From contig DATLGH010000099.1 in the NCBI GenBank assembly GCA_035540635.1, positions 1 through 44,419 of the forward strand: a DNA stretch of 44,419 nucleotides, in the 5' to 3' direction. Positions within the stretch are counted from its first letter, which is position 1; each line of letters opens with the position of its first letter. A program made the translations under genes and the position numbers. Positions 3,804 to 12,434 of the stretch are shown here, piece after piece. Below the pieces are notes generated by a model. The model was not told the DNA's origin. It was given only the letters and a program-made list of their open reading frames with translations, and ran no database searches. The DNA comes from Egibacteraceae bacterium (GTDB lineage Bacteria; Actinomycetota; Nitriliruptoria; Euzebyales; Egibacteraceae).

Positions 3804-3822
3804 CGCCCCCTCCCCGCAGCGG

Positions 3823-3828
3823 TAGGGT
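3823..3828 (+). promoter_or_regulatory. -10-like TAGGGT, leaderless start of dsrE-like gene
   Basis: TAGGGT is followed by 7 nt and the ATG at 3836. The same TAGGGTGAGCC string precedes the minus-strand gene that starts at 8230. This suggests that the gene can be transcribed independently of the upstream leader. Confidence 0.5.
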
Positions 3829-3835
3829 GAGCCCT

Positions 3836-4198
3836 ATGGGCCGGTCGATGGTTGTGAAGGTCACCCATGCGCTCGACGATCCCGAGCGCGCGCACATCGG
3901 CTGCAACGTCGCCGCGGTGGCGCTGGCCAGCGGCGTCGACGTGCACCTGTTCCTCGCCATTGAGGGCGTCACCCTCGCGCGGGACGAGGTGGCGGGGGAG
4001 CTGGAGGTCCCCGACGCTCCGCCGATCACGGACCTGCTCGCCGCGCTCTACGCCGGCGGCACCGTCACGGTGTGCACGCCCTGCGCCACCCGCCGGGGCC
4101 TCGCCGAGGCCGACTTCCGCCCCGGTACGCGGATGGCCGGTTCGGCGCTGTTCGTGGAGCTCGCGACCGCGGAGGGCACCCAGGCCCTCGTGTACTGA
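3836..4198 (+). CDS. DsrE-family protein with CTPC motif
   Basis: A 120-residue DsrE/DsrF-fold protein, the family of small sulfur-carrying subunits. It starts MVVKVTHALDDPERA, followed by a cysteine-containing helix (Cys23), a hydrophobic strand (VDVHLFLAIEGV) and a conserved-position motif CTPCATRRGL with Cys80 and Cys83. Cys80/83 sit where TusD/DsrE-type proteins bind persulfide. ATG 3836 is preferred over ATG 3848 because of the TAGGGT-N7-ATG leaderless arrangement. It converges on the sulfur-relay operon at 4203-7285, leaving only 4 bp between the stop codons. It is the only DsrE-like protein in the cluster that keeps a cysteine at the expected site, so it is the best candidate for the persulfide carrier. 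Confidence 0.75.
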   Translation: MGRSMVVKVTHALDDPERAHIGCNVAAVALASGVDVHLFLAIEGVTLARDEVAGELEVPDAPPITDLLAALYAGGTVTVCTPCATRRGLAEADFRPGTRMAGSALFVELATAEGTQALVY

Positions 4199-4202
4199 CG
4201 CC

Positions 4203-4634
4203 TCAGGCGGCGCGGCTGCTGTCGGGCACGGCACCGGCGTCGAGCAGGGCGTGGACGTCGGCGGCGGTGGGGACGCCGGCGACCCGGCCGAGGACCGTGC
4301 CGTCGACTTCCAACGCGAAGGTCGTCGGCGTGCGCAGCACCCCGTGCGCGCGGGCGAGGTCGAGGTGGTCGCCGACGTCGGCGGCCCGCACGGCCACGTC
4401 GTCACGGTCTCCGGCGACCTCCTCGAGGACGCGGCGCGCCATGGTGCACGGGGCGCACGACGGGGCGGTGAACGCCACGAGGAGGCGCCGCTCGGGCGGG
4501 GCGCCGATCGCGGCGAGCTCCTCGCCGGTGAAGCGATCGTCGACCGCGCGCACCTTCCCGTCGTGCGCCCGCCACCACAGTGCGAAGGCACCGGTGGCGG
4601 CCACGACCGTGGCCAGGACGAGCCACTCGCTCAT
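4203..4634 (-). CDS. Membrane-anchored thioredoxin-family protein
   Basis: A 143-residue protein with an N-terminal membrane segment (about residues 3-21, WLVLATVVAATGAFALWW). A thioredoxin fold follows, with the redox motif SCAPC (Cys60, Cys63) after LLVAFTAP and the cis-Pro loop TPTTF at about residue 105. It is likely anchored with the thioredoxin domain facing the cytoplasm or outside; the topology is not resolved. It is the last gene of the minus-strand sulfur-relay operon. The ATG at 4634 is used because it begins directly with the membrane segment; in-frame codons further upstream lie inside the DUF4395 gene. DUF4395-thioredoxin pairs recur in sulfur-metabolism clusters, suggesting delivery of reducing equivalents to a persulfidated partner. 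Confidence 0.8.
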   Translation of the reverse strand: MSEWLVLATVVAATGAFALWWRAHDGKVRAVDDRFTGEELAAIGAPPERRLLVAFTAPSCAPCTMARRVLEEVAGDRDDVAVRAADVGDHLDLARAHGVLRTPTTFALEVDGTVLGRVAGVPTAADVHALLDAGAVPDSSRAA

Positions 4635-4662
4635 CGCGACCTCGTTACGACCCGCCCAGCGC

Positions 4663-5121
4663 TCACGCCGGGCTCCCGCGGGAGGACGACCGCTCGTCGC
4701 CCGCCCGACGCGTGCCGAGCGCGCGCCGGCCGATCGCGTACACCTCGCAACCGACGCAGAGGCCGGTCGCGGCGAGCAGCCCCGACAGGGCAACCACGAC
4801 GAGCACGAGCCCCCACCCGAGGGTCGTTGCGCCGGTGAGCACGGCGGCCAGCCCCGCACCGGTGAAGATCAGGCCCATGAGCTGGGAGAAGCGCGGGCCC
4901 GCCTCGGGCTCGGTCGCCGGCGGCGGCCCCCAGTCGAGGCGGCGCTTCAAAAAGCGGAAGACGTTTCCGTAGGGCGACCAGCGCAGCCCTGCGAGCGCGG
5001 CCACGGCGAACACCGCAACCTGGAACGCGAGCAGCGCCGCCGACTGCGTGAGGAACGCGGCCGCGAGGACGAGGAAGGTCAGAGCGGCGGAGAACCGGGG
5101 ACCCCGGACGTCGATCTCCAT
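4663..5121 (-). CDS. DUF4395 membrane protein
   Basis: A 152-residue integral membrane protein with about four hydrophobic segments (residues 11-29, 30-46, 81-99, 103-121) and the DUF4395 signature CVGCE (Cys122, Cys125) at the end of the last helix. The WSPYGNVFRFLKRR loop is also typical of the family. The start is ATG 5121, preceded by AAAGGAG at a good distance; this Shine-Dalgarno lies at the stop of the upstream DsrE-like gene. DUF4395 proteins are found with thioredoxins and TusA/DsrE proteins, but their biochemical role is not established. The paired cysteines could exchange disulfides or persulfides with the adjacent thioredoxin. Confidence 0.8.
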   Translation of the reverse strand: MEIDVRGPRFSAALTFLVLAAAFLTQSAALLAFQVAVFAVAALAGLRWSPYGNVFRFLKRRLDWGPPPATEPEAGPRFSQLMGLIFTGAGLAAVLTGATTLGWGLVLVVVALSGLLAATGLCVGCEVYAIGRRALGTRRAGDERSSSRGSPA

Positions 5122-5138
5122 GGTCGTTGCTCCTTTGC

Positions 5139-5516
5139 TCACCAGTCGATCACCGCGTCGGCGGTGCGCAGCGCCTCGGCGAGGTCGCCGTCGTCGCACA
5201 GCGCGACGCCGGGGACGAGGTCGTCGGGGGCGAGGCCCAGGCGGTCGAGCTCGGCCCCGGTGACGAGCACCGCGACCCCGCTCTCGATGAGGCCACGCAG
5301 GTCCTGGGCGCTGGCCGCCGGCGGCAGCCCGACCCCGGCGAGCTGGCCGGGCCGGGTCTCGCCCCCGGCCACGGCGAGCTCGACCGCCGGCCCGCGCAGC
5401 ACGAGCGTGAGGTCGACGTCCTCAGCGACGGCGTACGCGTTCGCCTCGAGGGCGGGCTCGGTGGCGAGCAGCGCCCCGGCGACGCCCTGCAGCAGGCTGA
5501 CCACACGACGGGCCAT
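5139..5516 (-). CDS. DsrE/DsrH-like small protein C, degenerate cysteine site
   Basis: A 125-residue protein with the alternating strand/helix pattern of the DsrE/F/H fold, ending in AVIDW. A terminal W after a hydrophobic strand is usual in DsrH/TusB-like proteins. The position that carries the persulfide Cys in TusD/DsrE (after the GV-x-V strand) reads VAVLVTGAELDRLGL, with no cysteine. The only Cys is residue 107. ATG 5516 is chosen because homology-like sequence starts MARRVVSLLQG; the longer frame upstream is low-complexity. It is the fourth gene of the operon, after the HTH-TusA regulator and two more DsrE-like genes. Confidence 0.65.
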   Translation of the reverse strand: MARRVVSLLQGVAGALLATEPALEANAYAVAEDVDLTLVLRGPAVELAVAGGETRPGQLAGVGLPPAASAQDLRGLIESGVAVLVTGAELDRLGLAPDDLVPGVALCDDGDLAEALRTADAVIDW

Positions 5517-5547
5517 CCCTACGCCTCCCCCGGTGCGCCGCCGGTGC

Positions 5548-5901
5548 TCATGGCGCACCTCCCGCGGACAGCACGACGTCGGCCGTGCGCACGAACGCCC
5601 ACAGGTCTGCGTGGTCACCGGTCACGACGCCGGGCGCCTGGCGGTCGGCGACGCCGAGGCGGCGGGCGGCGTTGCCGTCGACGACCCAGTCGAGGGTGCC
5701 GCCGTGGACGCCGCGGCGCAGCAGCGCGGCGACGGCCCGCCCGACCTCGCCCGAGCCGGCCGACAGCACCGTCGCGTCGTCGTGGGCGAACACCGTCACC
5801 CGGTGACCGCGGTTGAGGACCCGCTCGGCGAGCCTGAGGGCGGTAGCGGTGCGCTCGGTCGTGACGCCGCCGGCGAGGACGAGGGCGATGGTGCGGGGCA
5901 T
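5548..5901 (-). CDS. DsrE-like small protein B, no cysteine
   Basis: A 117-residue DsrE-fold protein (MPRTIALVLAGGV, then TATALRLAERVLNRGHRVTVFAHDDA, the typical first strand-helix-strand). It contains no cysteine at all. The segment equivalent to the TusD active-site loop reads VDGNAARRLGV. It lies 31 bp upstream of protein C and 34 bp downstream of protein A. A sulfur-carrier function by persulfide is therefore unlikely for this subunit; a structural or binding role is more plausible. Confidence 0.65.
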   Translation of the reverse strand: MPRTIALVLAGGVTTERTATALRLAERVLNRGHRVTVFAHDDATVLSAGSGEVGRAVAALLRRGVHGGTLDWVVDGNAARRLGVADRQAPGVVTGDHADLWAFVRTADVVLSAGGAP

Positions 5902-5935
5902 CAGCGGGCCACCTCCACTGACGCGCACGCGGCGG

Positions 5936-6247
5936 TCACAGCCACACCGCCCGGTCGGCGCCGTCGGTGACGAGGTCGGCGATCTCGTCGAGGTCGACGG
6001 TCTTGCACCCTTCGGTGACCCGCCGGGCGGCGAGTCCCCGGCGGCGCAGCGCGTCGTCGTGCACGCTCACCTCCACGCCCGCGGCGAGGGCCTCCACGAC
6101 CGCGTCGGCGTCGGCGTGCCCGGGCCGTGCGAGCGCCGCAGCGCGGTCGAGCAGGACGACCGCGACGGTGTCGCCCGCGCTCGACCAGGCGCGAGCGAGT
6201 GCGAGGGCCCAGCGCGGGTCGCGGGAGACCAGGACGGTGTGGCGCAT
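5936..6247 (-). CDS. DsrE-like small protein A
   Basis: A 103-residue protein (MRHTVLVSRDPRWALALARAW...). The C-terminus TVDLDEIADLVTDGADRAVWL resembles the end of DsrE-family sulfur-reduction proteins. Its single cysteine is Cys81, just before that terminal segment. The usual persulfide position reads VEVSVHDDALRRRGL without Cys. The ATG directly abuts the TAG of the upstream HTH-TusA gene (TAGATG), so the two are certainly co-transcribed and probably translationally coupled. Together with proteins B and C it forms a three-subunit DsrE-fold set reminiscent of DsrEFH/TusBCD, but with divergent cysteine positions. Confidence 0.65.
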   Translation of the reverse strand: MRHTVLVSRDPRWALALARAWSSAGDTVAVVLLDRAAALARPGHADADAVVEALAAGVEVSVHDDALRRRGLAARRVTEGCKTVDLDEIADLVTDGADRAVWL

Positions 6248-7285
6248 CTACGCGCCCTTCCTGATGAGCAGGCGGATGCCGGGGCGGCCGGCTGCGTCGG
6301 TGGCACGCTCCACGCCGAGCAGCTGATGACCCGCACGGTCCGCCCACCGGGCGAAGGCCGCGGGGGACCCCGGACCCTCGGCGAGCACCTCGAGGACGTC
6401 GCCGGCACGCAGGCGCGTGACGGCCCGCATCGCCCGTACCACGCCGGTCTCCCGCGGCTGGCCGCGGACGTCGACGCCGTCCACCGGCTGCACGGCGGGT
6501 CGGGCAGCCGCCTGTCCCGTCGCGCGCGCACGCCAGACGCGCCCCCGGCCGGGGACCTCCCCGGCGTCGGCGAGCGTGACGGGGACGCCGGCGCCCGCCA
6601 GCGCCCCGCAGAGCAGGCCGCGCTCGAGGGCGTCGGCGAGGTCCGGACGGGCCTCGGCGAGCAGGGAGAAGGTGCCGTGCAGCCCGGTGACGTCGACCCA
6701 GTCGCGCCCGGCCCTCGCGACCCTGGTGTCGGGGGCCAGCTGCCGCAGGGACCGCAGCGCCCTCTCGGCGACCTCCTCGAGCGTCTGCGCAGGGTCGAGC
6801 TGCTGGCGCTGGTGGTCGGCGAGCACGAGGCGGCGGGCCTCGGTTGCGGCCGCGTCGTGCGCGCGGCTGGCGAGGGAGGCCGACTGGCCCTGCTGCCCCG
6901 CCGGGGCGTCGAGAAGGCCGGCGAGCAGTCGCACGAGCAGGGAGGCGCTGGCCGAGCCGCCGGGCCCGTTCGCGCCCAGGCCCTCGGCTCCGTCCGGCAC
7001 GTCGCTGTGCGCCTGGTACAGCTTGGCCGGGCGTCCACCGCCGGGGTGCTTGCGGAGACCGACGCCGACGAGCCCCGCGTCCGCGAGGGTCTCGAGATGG
7101 GTGCGGGCGACGTTGGGATGCAGGTCGAACGCGCCGGCCACGTCCCGAACGGTCAGTGGCCCGTCCACGGCCTGCAGGTGCGCGTAGATCGCCGCGCGGG
7201 TCGTCGAGCCGAGCGCCCGCGCCACGCTGACCGCCCGTCGACGGGCGGTCGGGCGCTCGGCGAGCGCACCGGACGCGGGGGCCAT
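6248..7285 (-). CDS. HTH (SufR/ArsR-like) regulator fused to a degenerate TusA domain
   Basis: A 345-residue protein. Residues about 20-92 form a winged helix-turn-helix (TVRDVAGAFDLHPNVARTHL then a GGGRPAKLY wing) as in SufR/ArsR-like regulators. Residues about 110-255 resemble the SufR-type sensor region, but the usual Fe-S ligand cysteines are absent (GLHGTFSLLAEARPDLADAL where CPF and VC are expected). Residues about 270-342 match TusA (VDVRGQPRETGVVRAMRAV, LRAGDVLEVLAEGPGS, IRLLIRK), but the catalytic CPxP is replaced by RETG. The only cysteine in the protein is Cys226. ATG 7285 follows GAGGAGG at good spacing. As first gene of the sulfur-relay operon it is probably its own regulator, sensing by contact with DsrE-like partners or by Cys226. 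The domain assignment is from motif reading. Confidence 0.75.
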   Translation of the reverse strand: MAPASGALAERPTARRRAVSVARALGSTTRAAIYAHLQAVDGPLTVRDVAGAFDLHPNVARTHLETLADAGLVGVGLRKHPGGGRPAKLYQAHSDVPDGAEGLGANGPGGSASASLLVRLLAGLLDAPAGQQGQSASLASRAHDAAATEARRLVLADHQRQQLDPAQTLEEVAERALRSLRQLAPDTRVARAGRDWVDVTGLHGTFSLLAEARPDLADALERGLLCGALAGAGVPVTLADAGEVPGRGRVWRARATGQAAARPAVQPVDGVDVRGQPRETGVVRAMRAVTRLRAGDVLEVLAEGPGSPAAFARWADRAGHQLLGVERATDAAGRPGIRLLIRKGA

Positions 7286-7316
7286 GGGTTCCTCCTCGGG
7301 CAGCGCACAGAGTTTG

Positions 7317-7333
7317 CACTGACCGGGCCAGTG
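7317..7333. promoter_or_regulatory. Candidate operator CACTG-N7-CAGTG
   Basis: An inverted repeat (CACTG 7317-7321, CAGTG 7329-7333) about 32 bp upstream of the HTH-TusA start, in an unusually AT-richer promoter stretch (7310-7388). It is a plausible autoregulatory site of the winged-helix protein. Confidence 0.35.
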
Positions 7334-7441
7334 TTATCCGTTCGGCTCCCACCTTCAAAGGGCAAGTGGTAGTGTAAACAGAGAAAACCGGGTTGTGGAC
7401 GGGGCGCCGCCGTGGCGGGAAGGGCCCGCCGGCCCGGCGCG

Positions 7442-8230
7442 CTACAGCGAGGCGAGGCGGGCGAGGGCGTACGCGGCCGGCGCGGCGAGCAGGACCGGCG
7501 TGGCGGCGGCGGTCAGCAGGCCCACAGGCAGGCGCGGCGATCGTGTTACCGCCTCCGGGGTGGCCGCGTCGGCGCGGGCGTTCGCGACGGCGTCGTCGAC
7601 GGCCTCGCGGAGCAGGCCCGCCGCGGCGGCGGCGAGCAGCGCAACCGCCGCGACCCCGGCGGCGCTCGACAGGTTGAACGGCGGATCGGCCGCGAGCGCG
7701 AGCCCGCCCGCGAGCAGCAGTGCGACGGCGACGGTCATGGCGCCGGCGGGGACGGCCTTGACCCGGGTGGCGGCCTCCTGGCGCACGGCGTCGACCGCGG
7801 TGGCCAGAAGCAGCACCCCGAGGATCCAGCGCCAGCCCTCGGGGAGCCCGCTGAGCAGCAGGAGGCCGCTCGCGCCGAGGCCCACCGCCAGGCCGGCGAG
7901 GGCGGTGCCGCCGAGGGCCGCCGTCACCCCGCGACGGCGGCCGAAGGCAAGGGCCATCGCGAACGCGGCGAGGACCCCCGCGGCGACGAAGTCGGGCACC
8001 GCCGTCCAGGCGTTGTCCGGCTGGAAGGCGATGGCCGCGGGCAGCCCCACGCCCGGCACCGCCGCGGCGAGCGTGATGGGTCGCGGGCCCGCGCGCGACA
8101 GCACCGCAGCGAAGTCGGCGAGCACGACCCCGGCGACGACGAGCACCACGACGGCGAAAACCAGAGCGCCCGCGGCCAGGGCGGCGAGCGTCACCGCCGC
8201 GAGCACGGCTGCCGCCGCCGTGTTCGTCAT
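7442..8230 (-). CDS. Multi-pass membrane protein, possibly a divergent CdsA-like protein
   Basis: A 262-residue, Ala/Leu/Val-rich protein with about seven to eight predicted membrane spans along its whole length. The N-terminal helices followed by a VPGVGLPAAIAFQP loop loosely recall phosphatidate cytidylyltransferase (CdsA), but the diagnostic C-terminal CdsA signature (S-x3-KR-x-x-x-KD...GG-x-x-DR-x-D) is absent. I therefore give no function. ATG 8230 is preceded by TAGGGT-N6, a leaderless promoter that includes the stop codon of the upstream MoaD-like gene. Confidence 0.6.
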   Translation of the reverse strand: MTNTAAAAVLAAVTLAALAAGALVFAVVVLVVAGVVLADFAAVLSRAGPRPITLAAAVPGVGLPAAIAFQPDNAWTAVPDFVAAGVLAAFAMALAFGRRRGVTAALGGTALAGLAVGLGASGLLLLSGLPEGWRWILGVLLLATAVDAVRQEAATRVKAVPAGAMTVAVALLLAGGLALAADPPFNLSSAAGVAAVALLAAAAAGLLREAVDDAVANARADAATPEAVTRSPRLPVGLLTAAATPVLLAAPAAYALARLASL

Positions 8231-8236
8231 CGGCTC

Positions 8237-8242
8237 ACCCTA
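8237..8242 (-). promoter_or_regulatory. -10-like TAGGGT, leaderless start of membrane-protein gene
   Basis: Minus-strand TAGGGT, then GAGCCG, then ATG 8230. The TAG of the hexamer is also the stop codon of the MoaD-like gene. Confidence 0.45.
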
Positions 8243-8578
8243 TACGAACCGGTTGCGGGATGGGCCGTCACGCAGCGACGAGCACACGCCGGGGGCGGAC
8301 GCCGTGTCAAGCCAGCCAGACGGCTCTCGCCTCGCACCCCCGCTGAACGGCGGCAGGAGCGCAACCTCGCCGCCGTCGGGCACGTCGACCGGGGCGTCGA
8401 GCGGGGTGGGGTTGCCGTCGACGAGCACGGCGCACACGGCGAGGCGCGCGGCGAAGCGCTCGTCGTAGCGGGCGCGCAGCTCGTCGAGGACGGTTGGCAG
8501 CGGGCCGGGGCTCGCGGTCGTCTCGCTCGTGCCCGCGGCCTCGCGCAGCGCCGCGAACAGCCGCACCCGCACCGCCAT
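8240..8578 (-). CDS. MoaD/ThiS-family sulfur carrier with a C-terminal extension
   Basis: A 112-residue ubiquitin-fold protein. Residues 1-81 are a complete MoaD-like domain (VRVRLFAALREAAG, then PDGGEVALLPPFSGG), including the Gly-Gly that is normally the very C-terminus and is adenylated and thiocarboxylated in MoaD/ThiS proteins. Here the frame continues 31 residues past Gly80-Gly81, so the carrier cannot be charged unless the tail is removed. The tail (ARREPSGWLDTASAPG...) is of no recognised family and could be read-through after loss of the original stop. The start is ATG 8578 (AGGAG 8 nt upstream); a longer frame to 8635 lacks support. It is divergent from the GlnR-like gene. Confidence 0.8.
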   Translation of the reverse strand: MAVRVRLFAALREAAGTSETTASPGPLPTVLDELRARYDERFAARLAVCAVLVDGNPTPLDAPVDVPDGGEVALLPPFSGGARREPSGWLDTASAPGVCSSLRDGPSRNRFV

Positions 8579-8719
8579 CCGCTGCCGCTCCTGTCCTGTC
8601 AGGCGTGCCGGTGACACCGTACGGCATCCGGCCATCGGAGGGCCGCCCGCGTTCCGTCAGCGGCCCGGGGCGCTGCGCTAGGCTCCTCGTGCAGCCCCAC
8701 GTGGACTGGAGGCCGCCGG

Positions 8720-9442
8720 TTGCATCTCATCGTGCTGTCCGACGCATCGGGGGCGGGCAAGGCCCTGCTGCCCGCGCTCGAGTTCCTCGACCACACCGTC
8801 GCGGCCGCGCGGCTGGCACCGGAGTCGCTCGCCGCCGCGGCGCCCGCCGACCTCGTCGTCGTCGACGCGACCGGCGACCTCGCGGCCGCGTCGCAGGTCT
8901 GCCGCGCGGCGGCGTCGGCCGAGTCTCCCCGGCCCGTCCTGCTCGTCGTCGGCGACGGGGGCCTGGCAGCGGTGAAGGCGAGCTGGGGGTTCGACGACTT
9001 CGTGTCGCCCTCGGCCCAGCCCGCCGAGGTGGAGACGCGCCTGCGGCTGGCCGCCGACCGGGCCCGGGCCGCGCACCGCCAGCACACGGCGAGGGTCGGC
9101 GACCTGCTCATCGACGAGGACACCTACATCGTCCGCCTGCGCGGACGGCCGCTGGACCTCACCTACCGCGAGTTCGAGCTCCTGCGCTACCTCGTCGCGC
9201 ATCCCGGGCGGGTCTTCACCCGCGGGCAGCTGCTCCAGGAGGTGTGGGGCTACGACTACTTCGGCGGCACCCGCACCGTCGACGTCCACATCCGCCGGCT
9301 GCGCGCCAAGCTGGGCCCCGAGCACGAACAGCTCATCGGCACCGTCCGCGGCGTCGGCTACAAGCTCGACCCGCAGGGCGTCGGTGAAGGCTCGGCGCGG
9401 CGCGACCCCGAACAAGGGGACGGAGGCACGCCCGCTCCCTGA
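8720..9442 (+). CDS. glnR: GlnR-like orphan OmpR-type response regulator
   Basis: A 240-residue regulator. The N-terminal receiver-like domain has VVVDATGD, with Asp49 at the phospho-acceptor-like position, but lacks the other conserved phosphorylation-site residues, as in GlnR proteins that work without a kinase. The C-terminal winged helix (about 125-222) is typical: LTYREFELLRYLVAHPGRVF, VWGYDYFGGTRTVDVHI, GVGYKLDP. GlnR controls nitrogen assimilation genes in actinobacteria. TTG 8720 is chosen because GGAGG (8708-8712) sits 7 nt upstream and the protein start matches the family. The neighbour is mshD, as in many actinobacteria, which supports the identity. A TAGGCT at 8680-8685 is a possible -10. 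Confidence 0.8.
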   Translation: MHLIVLSDASGAGKALLPALEFLDHTVAAARLAPESLAAAAPADLVVVDATGDLAAASQVCRAAASAESPRPVLLVVGDGGLAAVKASWGFDDFVSPSAQPAEVETRLRLAADRARAAHRQHTARVGDLLIDEDTYIVRLRGRPLDLTYREFELLRYLVAHPGRVFTRGQLLQEVWGYDYFGGTRTVDVHIRRLRAKLGPEHEQLIGTVRGVGYKLDPQGVGEGSARRDPEQGDGGTPAP

Positions 9443-9459: not shown

Positions 9460-10434
9460 CTACGCGGGGCGGAGGAGGTCCTCCCGGGAGACGCCCGCCG
9501 GAGGGATCTTCTTCTCGTAGCAGACCTCGGTCGACACGGCGGTGAAGCCGGCGGAGCGGTAGAGGGCCACCGGGCCCGCGTGCGAGGCGTCCACGTAGAG
9601 GATCGCCTGGCGGCAGCCGCGGTCGTGGAGATGGGCCAGCCCGGCGGCGAGAAGCAGCCGCCCGAGCCCGCGGCCCTGCGCGGCGGGGTCGACGGCGAGG
9701 ACGTAGACCTCCCCGACGGGCTCATGGGCGGCGACGGGCCCCGCGTCGTGGCCATGCCACTTCGTCCAGTGGAAGCCGAGCAGGTCGTCGGCCCCCCAGG
9801 CGAGGATGACGCCCTCGGCGGAGAACCACGGCTGGCGGCGGCGCTGCTCGAGCGTCGACCGGTCCCAGCCCCCCTGCTCGGGATGTCCGACGAAGGCGGC
9901 GTTGTTCACCCGCAGTAGCGCGCCGTCGTCGGCGCCCGGCCGGTAGGCGCGGAGCGTCACCCCCTCCGGCGGGCGCTCTACGGCCGGGCGGTCGGGCAGC
10001 GCGCGGGTCATCAGCAGCAGCTCGCGCTGGACCCCGAAGCCGGCCCGCGCGGCAAGCGTCGACCGCGCGTCGGCGACCCGGCGCACCCAGAGGAAGAGCG
10101 GGCCGCCGCCCGTGCGGGCGATGAGGGTCTGGGTCGCGTCGAGCAGGCGCAGGGCGAGCGCCTCACGGTCCTCGCGGTCGGGGCGCACGACCACCTCCGC
10201 GGCCGCCCGCGGTCGGGCGCCCGCGGCGTTCCAGCGCACGTGGGCGTAGCCGACGAGGTCGTCGCCTTCGTGTGCGAGCACGCCGGTCCAGTCCCGGGCA
10301 CCCGCGACGAGGTGGGCGTACTTGTGCTCACCGACCGGCGCGTGGCCCTCGAGGCGGGTCACCTCGTCGATGAGGGCACGCACCTCGACGAGGAGCGGCT
10401 CGTCGAGGGTCGCCGACACCTGGATGCGCACCAT
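9460..10434 (-). CDS. mshD: Mycothiol synthase
   Basis: A two-GNAT-domain acetyltransferase of 324 residues that makes mycothiol from Cys-GlcN-Ins and acetyl-CoA, the last step of mycothiol synthesis. The N-terminal GNAT half is degenerate. The C-terminal half carries family motifs VNNAAFVGHPEQGGW, GFHWTKWH and the acetyl-CoA loop VDPAAQGRGLGR. ATG 10434 is preferred to the upstream TTG (10458) because TACGCT lies 7 nt before it with no Shine-Dalgarno. Its presence implies mycothiol as the main low-molecular-weight thiol. Confidence 0.9.
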   Translation of the reverse strand: MVRIQVSATLDEPLLVEVRALIDEVTRLEGHAPVGEHKYAHLVAGARDWTGVLAHEGDDLVGYAHVRWNAAGARPRAAAEVVVRPDREDREALALRLLDATQTLIARTGGGPLFLWVRRVADARSTLAARAGFGVQRELLLMTRALPDRPAVERPPEGVTLRAYRPGADDGALLRVNNAAFVGHPEQGGWDRSTLEQRRRQPWFSAEGVILAWGADDLLGFHWTKWHGHDAGPVAAHEPVGEVYVLAVDPAAQGRGLGRLLLAAGLAHLHDRGCRQAILYVDASHAGPVALYRSAGFTAVSTEVCYEKKIPPAGVSREDLLRPA

Positions 10435-10441
10435 CGGCCGC

Positions 10442-10451
10442 AGCGTACGAT
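10442..10451. promoter_or_regulatory. Overlapping divergent -10 elements of mshD and fur
   Basis: The two ATGs (10434 minus, 10458 plus) are only 23 bp apart. Plus-strand TACGAT (10446-10451) precedes fur by 6 nt. Minus-strand TACGCT (10447-10442) precedes mshD by 7 nt. The hexamers share two base pairs, so polymerase can occupy only one direction at a time. Confidence 0.5.
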
Positions 10452-10457
10452 GCCCCA

Positions 10458-10871
10458 ATGGACGTCGGCCATCGCCTCCGCGACGAGGGGTACCGCCTCA
10501 CCCCCCAGCGCCAGCTCGTCTGGGATGTTCTCCGGCGCGCCGACCGCCACCTCACCGCCGAGGACATCCACAGCGCAGTCACCCGGGTGGTGCCCGACTT
10601 CAACCTCGCGAGCGTGTACCGCACGCTCGCGCTGCTCGCGGCGCTCGACCTCGCGAAGGAGGTCCGCCTCATCGACGGCAAGGGTCACTGGGAGGTCGCC
10701 CACCCCGACGAGGAGTTCCACCTCGTGTGCCGTTCCTGCGGCAGCGTCACCCACCACCGCGGGGGTCTCGTCGCCCAGACCCGCGAGCACCTGGCGACGA
10801 GCCACGGTTTCACCGCCGAGAACGTCGATCTCGTCGTCCGCGGCGTGTGCCGGGACTGCGGGCCCCGCTGA
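10458..10871 (+). CDS. Fur-family metalloregulator
   Basis: A 137-residue regulator with the Fur winged helix (RLTPQRQLVWDVLRR, HLTAEDIHSAV, NLASVYRTLALL). The C-terminal dimerisation domain has two CxxC pairs, CRSC and CRDC, which form the structural zinc site. The usual HHxHxxC regulatory motif is reduced to EEFHLVC, so some ligands of the second metal site differ. Whether it is Fur, Zur or PerR-like cannot be decided. It starts at ATG 10458 from a leaderless TACGAT promoter that overlaps the promoter of mshD. Confidence 0.85.
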   Translation: MDVGHRLRDEGYRLTPQRQLVWDVLRRADRHLTAEDIHSAVTRVVPDFNLASVYRTLALLAALDLAKEVRLIDGKGHWEVAHPDEEFHLVCRSCGSVTHHRGGLVAQTREHLATSHGFTAENVDLVVRGVCRDCGPR

Positions 10872-11063: not shown

Positions 11064-11138
11064 GGACCTGTGGAGCAGCTAGGAGTGCTCGTCACCCTGT
11101 CAAGGTGAAGGTCGCGGGTTCAAATCCCGTCAGGTCCG
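11064..11138 (+). tRNA. tRNA-Asp (anticodon GTC)
   Basis: Acceptor GGACCTG/CAGGTCC, anticodon loop CTGTCAA in a CACC/GGTG stem, T-loop TTCAAAT, discriminator G. CCA is not encoded. Confidence 0.93.
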
Positions 11139-11156
11139 CTCGACTCCCCCCGTCCT

Positions 11157-11229
11157 GGTCAGGTAGCTCAGTCGGTAGAGCGCTCGACTGAAAATCGAGA
11201 GGTCGGCGGTTCGACCCCGCCCCTGACCA
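11157..11229 (+). tRNA. tRNA-Phe (anticodon GAA)
   Basis: Acceptor GGTCAGG/CCTGACC, anticodon loop CTGAAAA in a TCGA stem, T-loop TTCGACC, discriminator A. Its 3' half is duplicated at 13545-13579, marking it as the integration site of a mobile element; the gene itself is intact. Confidence 0.93.
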
Positions 11230-11230
11230 C
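11196..11230 (+). repeat. attL: 35-bp direct repeat within tRNA-Phe
   Basis: The 35 bp are identical to 13545-13579. The match extends 7 bp further upstream (CTGAAAA) if one T (11195) is skipped. It covers the 3' part of tRNA-Phe. Confidence 0.85.
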
Positions 11231-11315
11231 AAAGCCACTCCCCGCAAGGGTTTCCCGCTCTCTCGCCCATAACGCGGGCTAACATCGCGCACACTGAGCG
11301 GATGTTCTAGACTGA

Positions 11316-11730
11316 GTGGACCTGTTCGACCCTCTGCTACGCCAGCGGTCGCGCTCGCTGCGGGCCTGCAACCGCTCCCCACGCACGATCGAGACGTACA
11401 CCGACTCGGCCCGCCAGCTCGCCGCGTTCGCTGCCGCCCATGGTCGGACCGACCTCGACCGGGACCTCATCACCGACTACCTCGCCGGACCTCGCCGACC
11501 GCCGGAAGCCGACGACGGTCGCCTTCCGCTACCGCAGCCTGCAGCAGCTCACAAAGTGGCTCGTCGCCGAGGGCGAGCTGACCGCCGACCCGATGGCGGG
11601 CATGCACGTCCCGCACGTCCCCGAGCAGCCCGTACCGGTGCTGACCGACGACGACCTGCGCGCCCTACTCGCCGCCTGCAAGGGCACCGGCTTCGCCGAG
11701 CGCCGCGACACGGCGATCATCCGAAGCGCC
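11316..11730 (+). pseudogene. Tyrosine recombinase/integrase, frameshifted and truncated
   Basis: The N-terminal core-binding (SAM-like) domain starts at GTG 11316: MDLFDPLLRQRSRSLRACNR, then SPRTIETYTDSARQLAAFA. About position 11485 the frame shifts, and the rest of the domain continues in a second frame (RKPTTVAFRYRSLQQLTKWL, GELTADPMAGMHVPHVPEQP, VPVLTDDDLRALLAA). The catalytic domain stops right after RRDTAIIR, before any of the catalytic residues R-H-R-H-Y. Actinobacterial integrases of this type are about 300-400 residues. It lies 86 bp from tRNA-Phe and presumably catalysed the original insertion. Confidence 0.8.
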
Positions 11731-11768
11731 GGGCGGGACTGCCTCCGATCCTGTGCAGGCCGTGGAGC

Positions 11769-12179
11769 TCAGGACCCGCCGAGGTGCCCGTCCACGAACC
11801 CTCGCGGGTTCAGGACCGCCGGTTCCGAGATCTCGGCTTCGAGCAGATCGAGATCGCCGGAAACGAGCATCTCGGCCCCCGCGGTGCGCGCCAGCGCGAT
11901 CAAGTAGTCATCGCCGGGATCGCGCGTGACGGCCGGCACCTCGGTCGGATCAGCGGCGCTCTCACAGGCAGCCAGTCCGTCGAGCACCCGATCGACCTCC
12001 TCGCGATCCAGCCACTCGAACTTCGGACGAGCGGTGACCTCGCGAACCTCTTGCAACAGCTTCGGCGACACGATGACGGTGATCGTCCCGCCGAGGGCGG
12101 CCTGCAGGACACGGTCCGGAGCGCTGCCGGGGGTCAGCATGGCCGACACGATCACGTTCGGGTCGACGACGACCCGCAC
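11769..12179 (-). CDS. PIN-domain toxin (putative ribonuclease)
   Basis: A 136-residue protein of the PIN-family putative toxins. The first acidic residue lies in RVVVDPNVIVSAML (Asp6), and later acidic residues occur in EVREVTARPKFEWL and PGDDYLIALA, where the Mg2+-binding Asp/Glu of PIN nucleases are found. GAEMLVSGDLDLL is the typical C-terminal motif. The frame is intact. It lies 3 bp downstream of its predicted antitoxin gene, forming a type II toxin-antitoxin operon inside the mobile-element relic. Target RNA unknown. Confidence 0.8.
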   Translation of the reverse strand: MRVVVDPNVIVSAMLTPGSAPDRVLQAALGGTITVIVSPKLLQEVREVTARPKFEWLDREEVDRVLDGLAACESAADPTEVPAVTRDPGDDYLIALARTAGAEMLVSGDLDLLEAEISEPAVLNPRGFVDGHLGGS

Positions 12180-12182
12180 AGG

Positions 12183-12434
12183 TCAGGACGCGTGGGCACG
12201 CCGCTGGGCACGAGCAGCCTTCTGCTCAGCGACGACGATGTCCATGACCTCGCCTTCGGACAGGTCCTGCCACGGGCTCGCGGCCTGCAGACGGCCCAAC
12301 GCCCGCAGGGCGAGCAACCGACGCAAAGCCCGCTCCACGAGCTCCTCGGTCGCCACGGCGTCCTCGGCCGCGGCCGCGGCCGCACGCTCGTACAGCGCTG
12401 AGTCGATCGAGACAGAACGACGGGATTGGCTCAC
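12183..12434 (-). CDS. Ribbon-helix-helix-type antitoxin
   Basis: An 83-residue protein beginning SQSRRSVSIDSALYERAAAA, the short beta-strand and helix pattern of ribbon-helix-helix antitoxins, with an acidic/alanine-rich C-terminal half (LSEGEVMDIVVAEQKAARAQ) suited to binding the toxin. GTG 12434 is preceded by TAGACT (minus strand, 12446-12441) with 6 nt between, a leaderless start. It lies immediately upstream of the PIN toxin; the order antitoxin-toxin is typical. Confidence 0.75.
   Translation of the reverse strand: MSQSRRSVSIDSALYERAAAAAAEDAVATEELVERALRRLLALRALGRLQAASPWQDLSEGEVMDIVVAEQKAARAQRRAHAS

Follow-up and report, generated by a model that had tools for sequence, protein, structure and literature searches.

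A TusA-domain regulator and a DsrEFH-like trio without sulfur-carrying cysteines: a putative non-catalytic docking module with a probable sulfur-assimilation regulator in Nitriliruptoria

Must a group of genes with the folds of a persulfide relay move sulfur? The question is raised by a 44,419-nucleotide stretch of DNA (the window; contig DATLGH010000099.1 of assembly GCA_035540635.1) from the 3.46 Mb genome of an Egibacteraceae bacterium of the class Nitriliruptoria, in which positions 4203-7285 hold six tightly packed minus-strand genes, here named A to F: a regulator with a TusA domain (A), three DsrE-fold proteins (B, C and D), a DUF4395 membrane protein (E) and a thioredoxin (F). An earlier interpretation, made without database searches (the sequence-only reading), had taken them for a membrane-linked module that senses or traffics persulfide. 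It overlooked the loss of cysteine from the TusA domain and from C, and a convergent fourth DsrE gene beside the operon (G). With these taken into account, we consider it slightly better than even, with a probability of about 0.55, that A regulates sulfur assimilation and that its cysteine-less TusA domain makes up, with the cysteine-less DsrEFH-like trio, a module that docks and does not catalyse.

The six genes and their families are as the sequence-only reading had described them, with all Pfam assignments above the curated cut-offs. Gene A (6248..7285) encodes a protein of 345 residues with HTH_20 and TusA domains. It abuts B (5936..6247, 103 residues) with zero spacing, the junction reading TAGATG at 6250-6245 (stop codon of A at 6250-6248, start codon of B at 6247-6245). 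C (5548..5901, 117 residues) and D (5139..5516, 125 residues) follow, and B, C and D all match Pfam DsrE (E-values 1.5e-5, 3e-5 and 9e-6, respectively). E (4663..5121; DUF4395, 4e-33) carries the CxxC motif CVGCE, and F (4203..4634; Thioredoxin) has the motif CAPC after an N-terminal hydrophobic stretch, which we take as a likely membrane anchor from its sequence. The DsrE fold proposed for the three small proteins is confirmed, for C by a structure model and for B and D by profile. The AlphaFold2 model of C (predicted local distance difference test score, pLDDT, 88.5) matches YchN and DsrE of DsrEFH with template modelling (TM) scores of 0.76-0.77, making C DsrE/TusD-like; B is DsrH/TusB-like, its profile matching DsrH (2hy5_C) at 1e-4; the profile of D is nearest to MTH1491 and DsrH.

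The model of A (pLDDT 87.4) comprises three parts, whose relative placement is of low confidence (predicted TM score 0.53). Residues ~16-98 are modelled as an ArsR-like winged helix and residues ~107-257 as a TRAPP/V4R-like domain (Z 12, root mean square deviation 4.0 over 141 residues). Residues ~263-345 have the TusA fold (Z 13.9 and root mean square deviation 1.9 Å over 79 residues to YeeD; Z 12.4 to TusA) with about 24% identity to the TusA and YeeD (TsuB) carriers, and the model also matched PDB entry 3lvj, in which TusA binds IscS. Matches of the whole model to S-adenosylmethionine-dependent methyltransferases were dropped, having low TM-scores; they most likely reflect a shared winged-helix/dimerisation part.

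We examined the cysteines on which relay chemistry depends by aligning these proteins with their E. coli counterparts, the reference sequences being taken from the K-12 record. At the position of TusA Cys19, all 47 class regulators carry Arg, Tyr, Phe or Leu; in the window the residue is Arg, and the CPxP motif is replaced by RGQPRETG. At the position of TusD Cys78, all 25 homologues of C have Val, Ile, Met or Leu when the alignment is anchored by the convergent DsrE gene; in an unanchored alignment the position is displaced by a gap and likewise holds no cysteine. The loss is not confined to these sites, as no conserved cysteine column was found across the class in A, B (26 homologues), C or D; C of the window has no cysteine at all, nor have 27 of the 47 A proteins. 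Among the six genes, conserved cysteine pairs are restricted to E and F, as one CxxC motif in each (28 of 28 homologues of E having that column, 25 of 25 of F), and both genes are separable from B-C-D. The convergent gene G (3815..4198, plus strand; Pfam DsrE, 1.5e-11) differs from the trio in that it could be catalytic, its three cysteines (C30 and C87xxC90, the latter a CxxC motif) being conserved in 10-11 of 11 homologues. It is often kept at the locus.

Loss of cysteines is not accompanied by decay. The rate of nonsynonymous substitution (dN) is below that of synonymous substitution (dS) for every gene and every pair compared (for C of the window and its genus mate, 0.07 vs 0.40), so A to D are under purifying selection. 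Gene A is present in all 33 good genomes of the class, among the 61 relatives collected. The gene order, whose conservation the sequence-only reading had left to be checked, recurs in many of them and is thus not due to chance: fur, mshD, a regulator that we take to be GlnR-like, MoaD, in some cases a membrane protein, A, optionally B-C-D, in some cases cysH, E, F, optionally the convergent DsrE gene, and YgfZ. Around the constant A, the pair E-F and the trio B-C-D are gained or lost independently. E and F are both absent from 14 of 37 long loci that retain A, and B-C-D is all-or-none, complete at 22 A loci, absent from 21 and partial at none. With a profile of D, strong matches were obtained in 15 of 30 class genomes, every one beside A; the rest of 296 genomes of the phylum gave no strong match, only weak ones to other DsrE proteins.

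The TusA domain is the most conserved part of A in the families that carry B-C-D (f1-f3 and f5; identity 0.71 vs 0.36 for the middle domain), and its identity of 0.63-0.71 shows it still conserved where A occurs without the trio. In three good genomes with B-C-D (G015, which is a single contig, G022 and G040), A is the sole TusA, and hence the only TusA-type partner available to the trio there. A dependence of B-C-D on a canonical TusA was rejected on the same three genomes.

Outgroup loci give an indication of how the arrangement may have arisen. Three of them (L137, L165 and L167) hold a GlnR-like regulator, a membrane protein, an orthologous regulator (A-prime) and then DUF4395 and thioredoxin genes; L167 additionally carries a DsrE gene, in the position orthologous to G, and YgfZ. 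These loci are without B-C-D, and A-prime is without a TusA domain, though its middle domain shows the cysteine pattern DCPF...C...C. Among the 296 phylum genomes, matches to A through its TusA domain are limited to members of the class. Most simply, then, the TusA domain and B-C-D were added, and the cysteines lost, within Nitriliruptoria. The ancestor of A would have been SufR-like, with a middle domain that contained cysteines, and would have regulated a DUF4395-thioredoxin operon; within the class it would have shed these cysteines and acquired a TusA-fold domain with the catalytic cysteine replaced, and roughly half of the genomes combine it with a DsrEFH/TusBCD-like trio that is likewise cysteine-less. 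Sensing through an Fe-S cluster is plausible for the outgroup orthologues and was rejected for A of the class on its missing cysteines.

Which genes A might control is suggested by a sequence repeated upstream of it. The consensus of the A-upstream regions is a tandem 9-bp repeat, TTTGCACTG TTTGCACTG, i.e. (TTTGCACTG)2, and 56% of 48 such regions score at least 13/18 for it against 0.5% of dinucleotide shuffles, a descriptive figure because the consensus was read from these same regions. In the window the candidate operator of A lies at 7370..7387 on the minus strand (TTTTCTCTG TTTACACTA) and is the only site of at least 9 bits; it scores 27.2 bits, having itself belonged to the training set. 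A possible second operator upstream of A is a CACTG-N7-CAGTG palindrome at 7313..7333 on the plus strand (TTTGCACTG ACC GGG CCAGTG), which is also found in a genome of the same genus and, up to three mismatches, occurs only at A in its own genome. Inverted repeats were also sought upstream of A, with no consistent result.

We trained a weight matrix on 27 sites upstream of A and on no others, and scanned it over 20 loci chosen solely for holding cysH. In 12 of the 20, the best match of the locus lay at most about 370 bp ahead of the sir/cysH operon, always on the operon strand (expected 0.037 per locus, p 6e-13). Within a single family, four genomes carry the variant TTTCTAC[CG]GTATYGA ahead of sir, and at least two have it ahead of A. 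When six genomes were searched with a pattern, 20 sites were returned, compared with 3 in the reversed control; apart from A and E, the genes that they precede are moeZ (two genera), metN-metI (two genomes) and sulfite reductase (two). That the repeat is a general promoter element was rejected, since 36 sites of at least 14 bits lie upstream of A and 16 in the remainder of 601 kb. A genome-wide search of the window's own genome with two mismatches allowed found sites no more often than the reversed control did. The best operator-like site of this genome outside A, with one mismatch, lies on the sir-cysH/cysD contig (C73, 27464-27481, minus strand; L183 12465), flanked by an open reading frame (ORF) for a secreted protein and one for an SLC13-like permease. 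In the outgroup, the best site of the locus is upstream of A-prime in four of five loci (two of them near-identical), and one genome (G083) has a 25.8-bit site upstream of cysH; no such site precedes cysH in another (G097). Apparently, then, the site is older than the TusA fusion, which is what binding by the regulator itself would lead one to expect, and the outgroup sites argue that the motif belongs to the A family.

The genes, their folds without catalysis, the cysteine loss, the linkage and the regulon-like distribution of sites are established by computation, and on them we base the following model. A itself probably binds the tandem repeats at its own gene, at sulfite reductase/cysH, at moeZ and at metNI, and would thereby control their transcription. 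Its TusA-like domain, keeping the surface of TusA, would bind relay partners, most likely docking the B-C-D complex where this is present. Elsewhere the partner might be a cysteine desulfurase or another TusA partner; the desulfurase is a candidate because TusA binds IscS and because the window's genome holds, at another place, a genuine TusA (KPCPVP) beside a cysteine-desulfurase-like ORF (contig C6, L302 4398-6321, minus strand). We infer that binding, rather than transfer of sulfur, sets the activity of the regulator according to sulfur status, a signal that A would read through docking. The presence of CysH directly after D in seven genomes fits a role in sulfate assimilation. Of the sequence-only reading, the sulfur-linked module with a dedicated regulator stands; the likely targets of that regulator are genes of sulfate assimilation and related sulfur genes, not a relay for sulfur oxidation.

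Several observations weigh against this docking model. Half of the class has A without B-C-D, so docking the trio cannot be the only role of A, and its TusA domain, kept there, must have some further partner or ligand. The cultured Salsipaludibacter albus (locus L118) is one member of the class with A and no trio. Four genomes (G040, G037, G047 and G048) have B-C-D and lack CysH. The consensus was derived from regions upstream of A, and another regulator could own the motif. The 12 matches at sir/cysH span about nine genera and loci of one genus are not independent; four of the 12 are weak (9.5-10.7 bits), and the sir promoter of the window's genome is without a clear site (3.6 bits).

Other readings of the locus have to be set against the docking model. 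In a true persulfide relay, sulfane sulfur would move between B-C-D and the TusA domain of A, in either direction, with that domain as the persulfide sensor. The company of a TusA fold with three DsrE-fold proteins favours this, as does the genuine TusA encoded elsewhere in the genome, but the sulfur-carrying cysteines are missing in every homologue. DsrE Cys78 is essential in Allochromatium vinosum (PMC3397948), and the cysteine is retained in 99.3% of DsrEFH type II sequences (PMC13293266). Persulfide transfer or sensing by A to D, as the sequence-only reading had it, is therefore largely refuted, and we regard it as highly improbable. That A responds to a small molecule held non-covalently is also unlikely, though it deserves real weight. 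Here the ligand, perhaps a sulfur metabolite, would sit in the TRAPP/V4R-like or the TusA-like domain, and B-C-D would be a separate accessory that might, for example, act on CysH or sulfite reductase as chaperone or scaffold. The middle domain of A models as a TRAPP/V4R-like fold, a group that has ligand-binding members; CysH follows B-C-D in the seven genomes mentioned, and A works without the trio in half of the class. On the other hand, the trio persists without CysH, strong matches to D are never found away from A, and in the B-C-D-carrying families it is the TusA domain, not the middle one, that is best conserved. An obligate role of B-C-D as CysH accessory was rejected, several genomes with the trio having no CysH.

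Alternatively, A could be one target among others of an unrelated, class-wide sulfur regulator that owns the tandem repeat: sites also precede sir/cysH, moeZ and metNI, and binding by A is a prediction. We think this improbable, as most of the class has the site in front of A and the outgroup has it in front of A-prime, which is what autoregulation would give, and as A is found in every good class genome. Only a little less doubtful is a thiol-redox module in which E and F are the business end under A and B-C-D an add-on of little consequence. The order from A or A-prime to E-F is the ancestral core, and in other actinobacteria the thioredoxin-DUF4395 pair adjoins a CysA2-type rhodanese, but E and F can both be lost while A stays, and the predicted regulon is one of sulfur assimilation. 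The rhodanese arrangement was seen at nine loci (L197, L198, L200, L201, L203-L205, L207 and L211), where the CysA2 rhodanese motif CR[IVL]GERS[SA] occurs in an ORF after DUF4395, itself mostly preceded by thioredoxin.

The neighbours of the operon in the window are syntenic in the relatives. They are a membrane protein weakly like CTP_transf_1 (7442..8230, minus strand), a MoaD/ThiS-family protein (8240..8635, minus), a response regulator matching winged-helix response-regulator families, presumably GlnR-like (8720..9442, plus), and the mycothiol synthase MshD (9460..10458, minus; TIGR03448, 242 bits, above cut-off). The frame of the MoaD/ThiS protein extends about 28 residues beyond its C-terminal GG, and a relative (L064) ends in GGSSSMHC; as a sulfur carrier it would need processing, or else the extension is functional. 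Further along, 11092-11907 looks like the remnant of an integrated element, with an integrase-like ORF fragment and an ORF of a kind often spuriously read across tRNA-adjacent integration sites, and a PIN-domain-like ORF with a small upstream ORF (11769-12434, minus) resembles a VapBC-type toxin-antitoxin pair.

Sulfur relays are understood as cysteine chemistry, and versions that are cysteine-less and under selection suggest a use of the relay fold for binding alone, comparable to that of pseudokinases among kinases. Somewhat short of even odds, in our estimate, is the wider proposal that the class turned a TusA-TusBCD relay into a non-catalytic signalling complex, in which a regulator with a dead TusA domain docks a dead DsrEFH trio over a sulfur-assimilation regulon; if true, this would be a pseudo-enzyme version of a sulfur relay. 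The locus also offers a candidate for the protein that regulates sulfur assimilation in this class, together with a predicted DNA site and predicted targets, and the absence of the trio from half of the genomes is a natural experiment.

In the literature searched we found no system of this composition, in line with the sequence-only reading, and nothing on DUF4395 with thioredoxin or on Nitriliruptor with sulfur and mycothiol. Individual parts can be compared with known systems. Like TusBCD of E. coli and DsrEFH, the trio consists of three adjacent DsrE-fold genes, one DsrH/TusB-like and one DsrE/TusD-like, with TusA as natural partner; it differs from them in that all its subunits lack the active-site cysteine, in that the DsrH-like gene comes first and in that strong matches occur only beside the regulator. 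The C-terminal domain of A shares the fold of the TusA and YeeD (TsuB) carriers but is fused to a winged-helix regulator and has CPxP replaced. SufR-like and ArsR-family regulators share with A an HTH_20/ArsR-like winged helix and, after it, a middle domain; A has in addition a TusA domain and predicted sulfur-assimilation targets, and the SufR-like cysteine pattern, with ligands in the C-terminal region, is kept by the outgroup orthologues whereas A of the class has no cysteine column. The thioredoxin-DUF4395-CysA2 loci of other actinobacteria share the E-F pair, joined there to a rhodanese-type sulfurtransferase and here to the regulator with or without B-C-D. Finally, the sulfane-sulfur-responsive ArsR repressors of the SoxR, sHdrR, SqrR and BigR type are, like A, ArsR-type regulators linked to TusA and DsrE-family genes; they sense by two conserved cysteines (PMC12423496), whereas A has none that is conserved and would, in the docking model, respond to binding alone.

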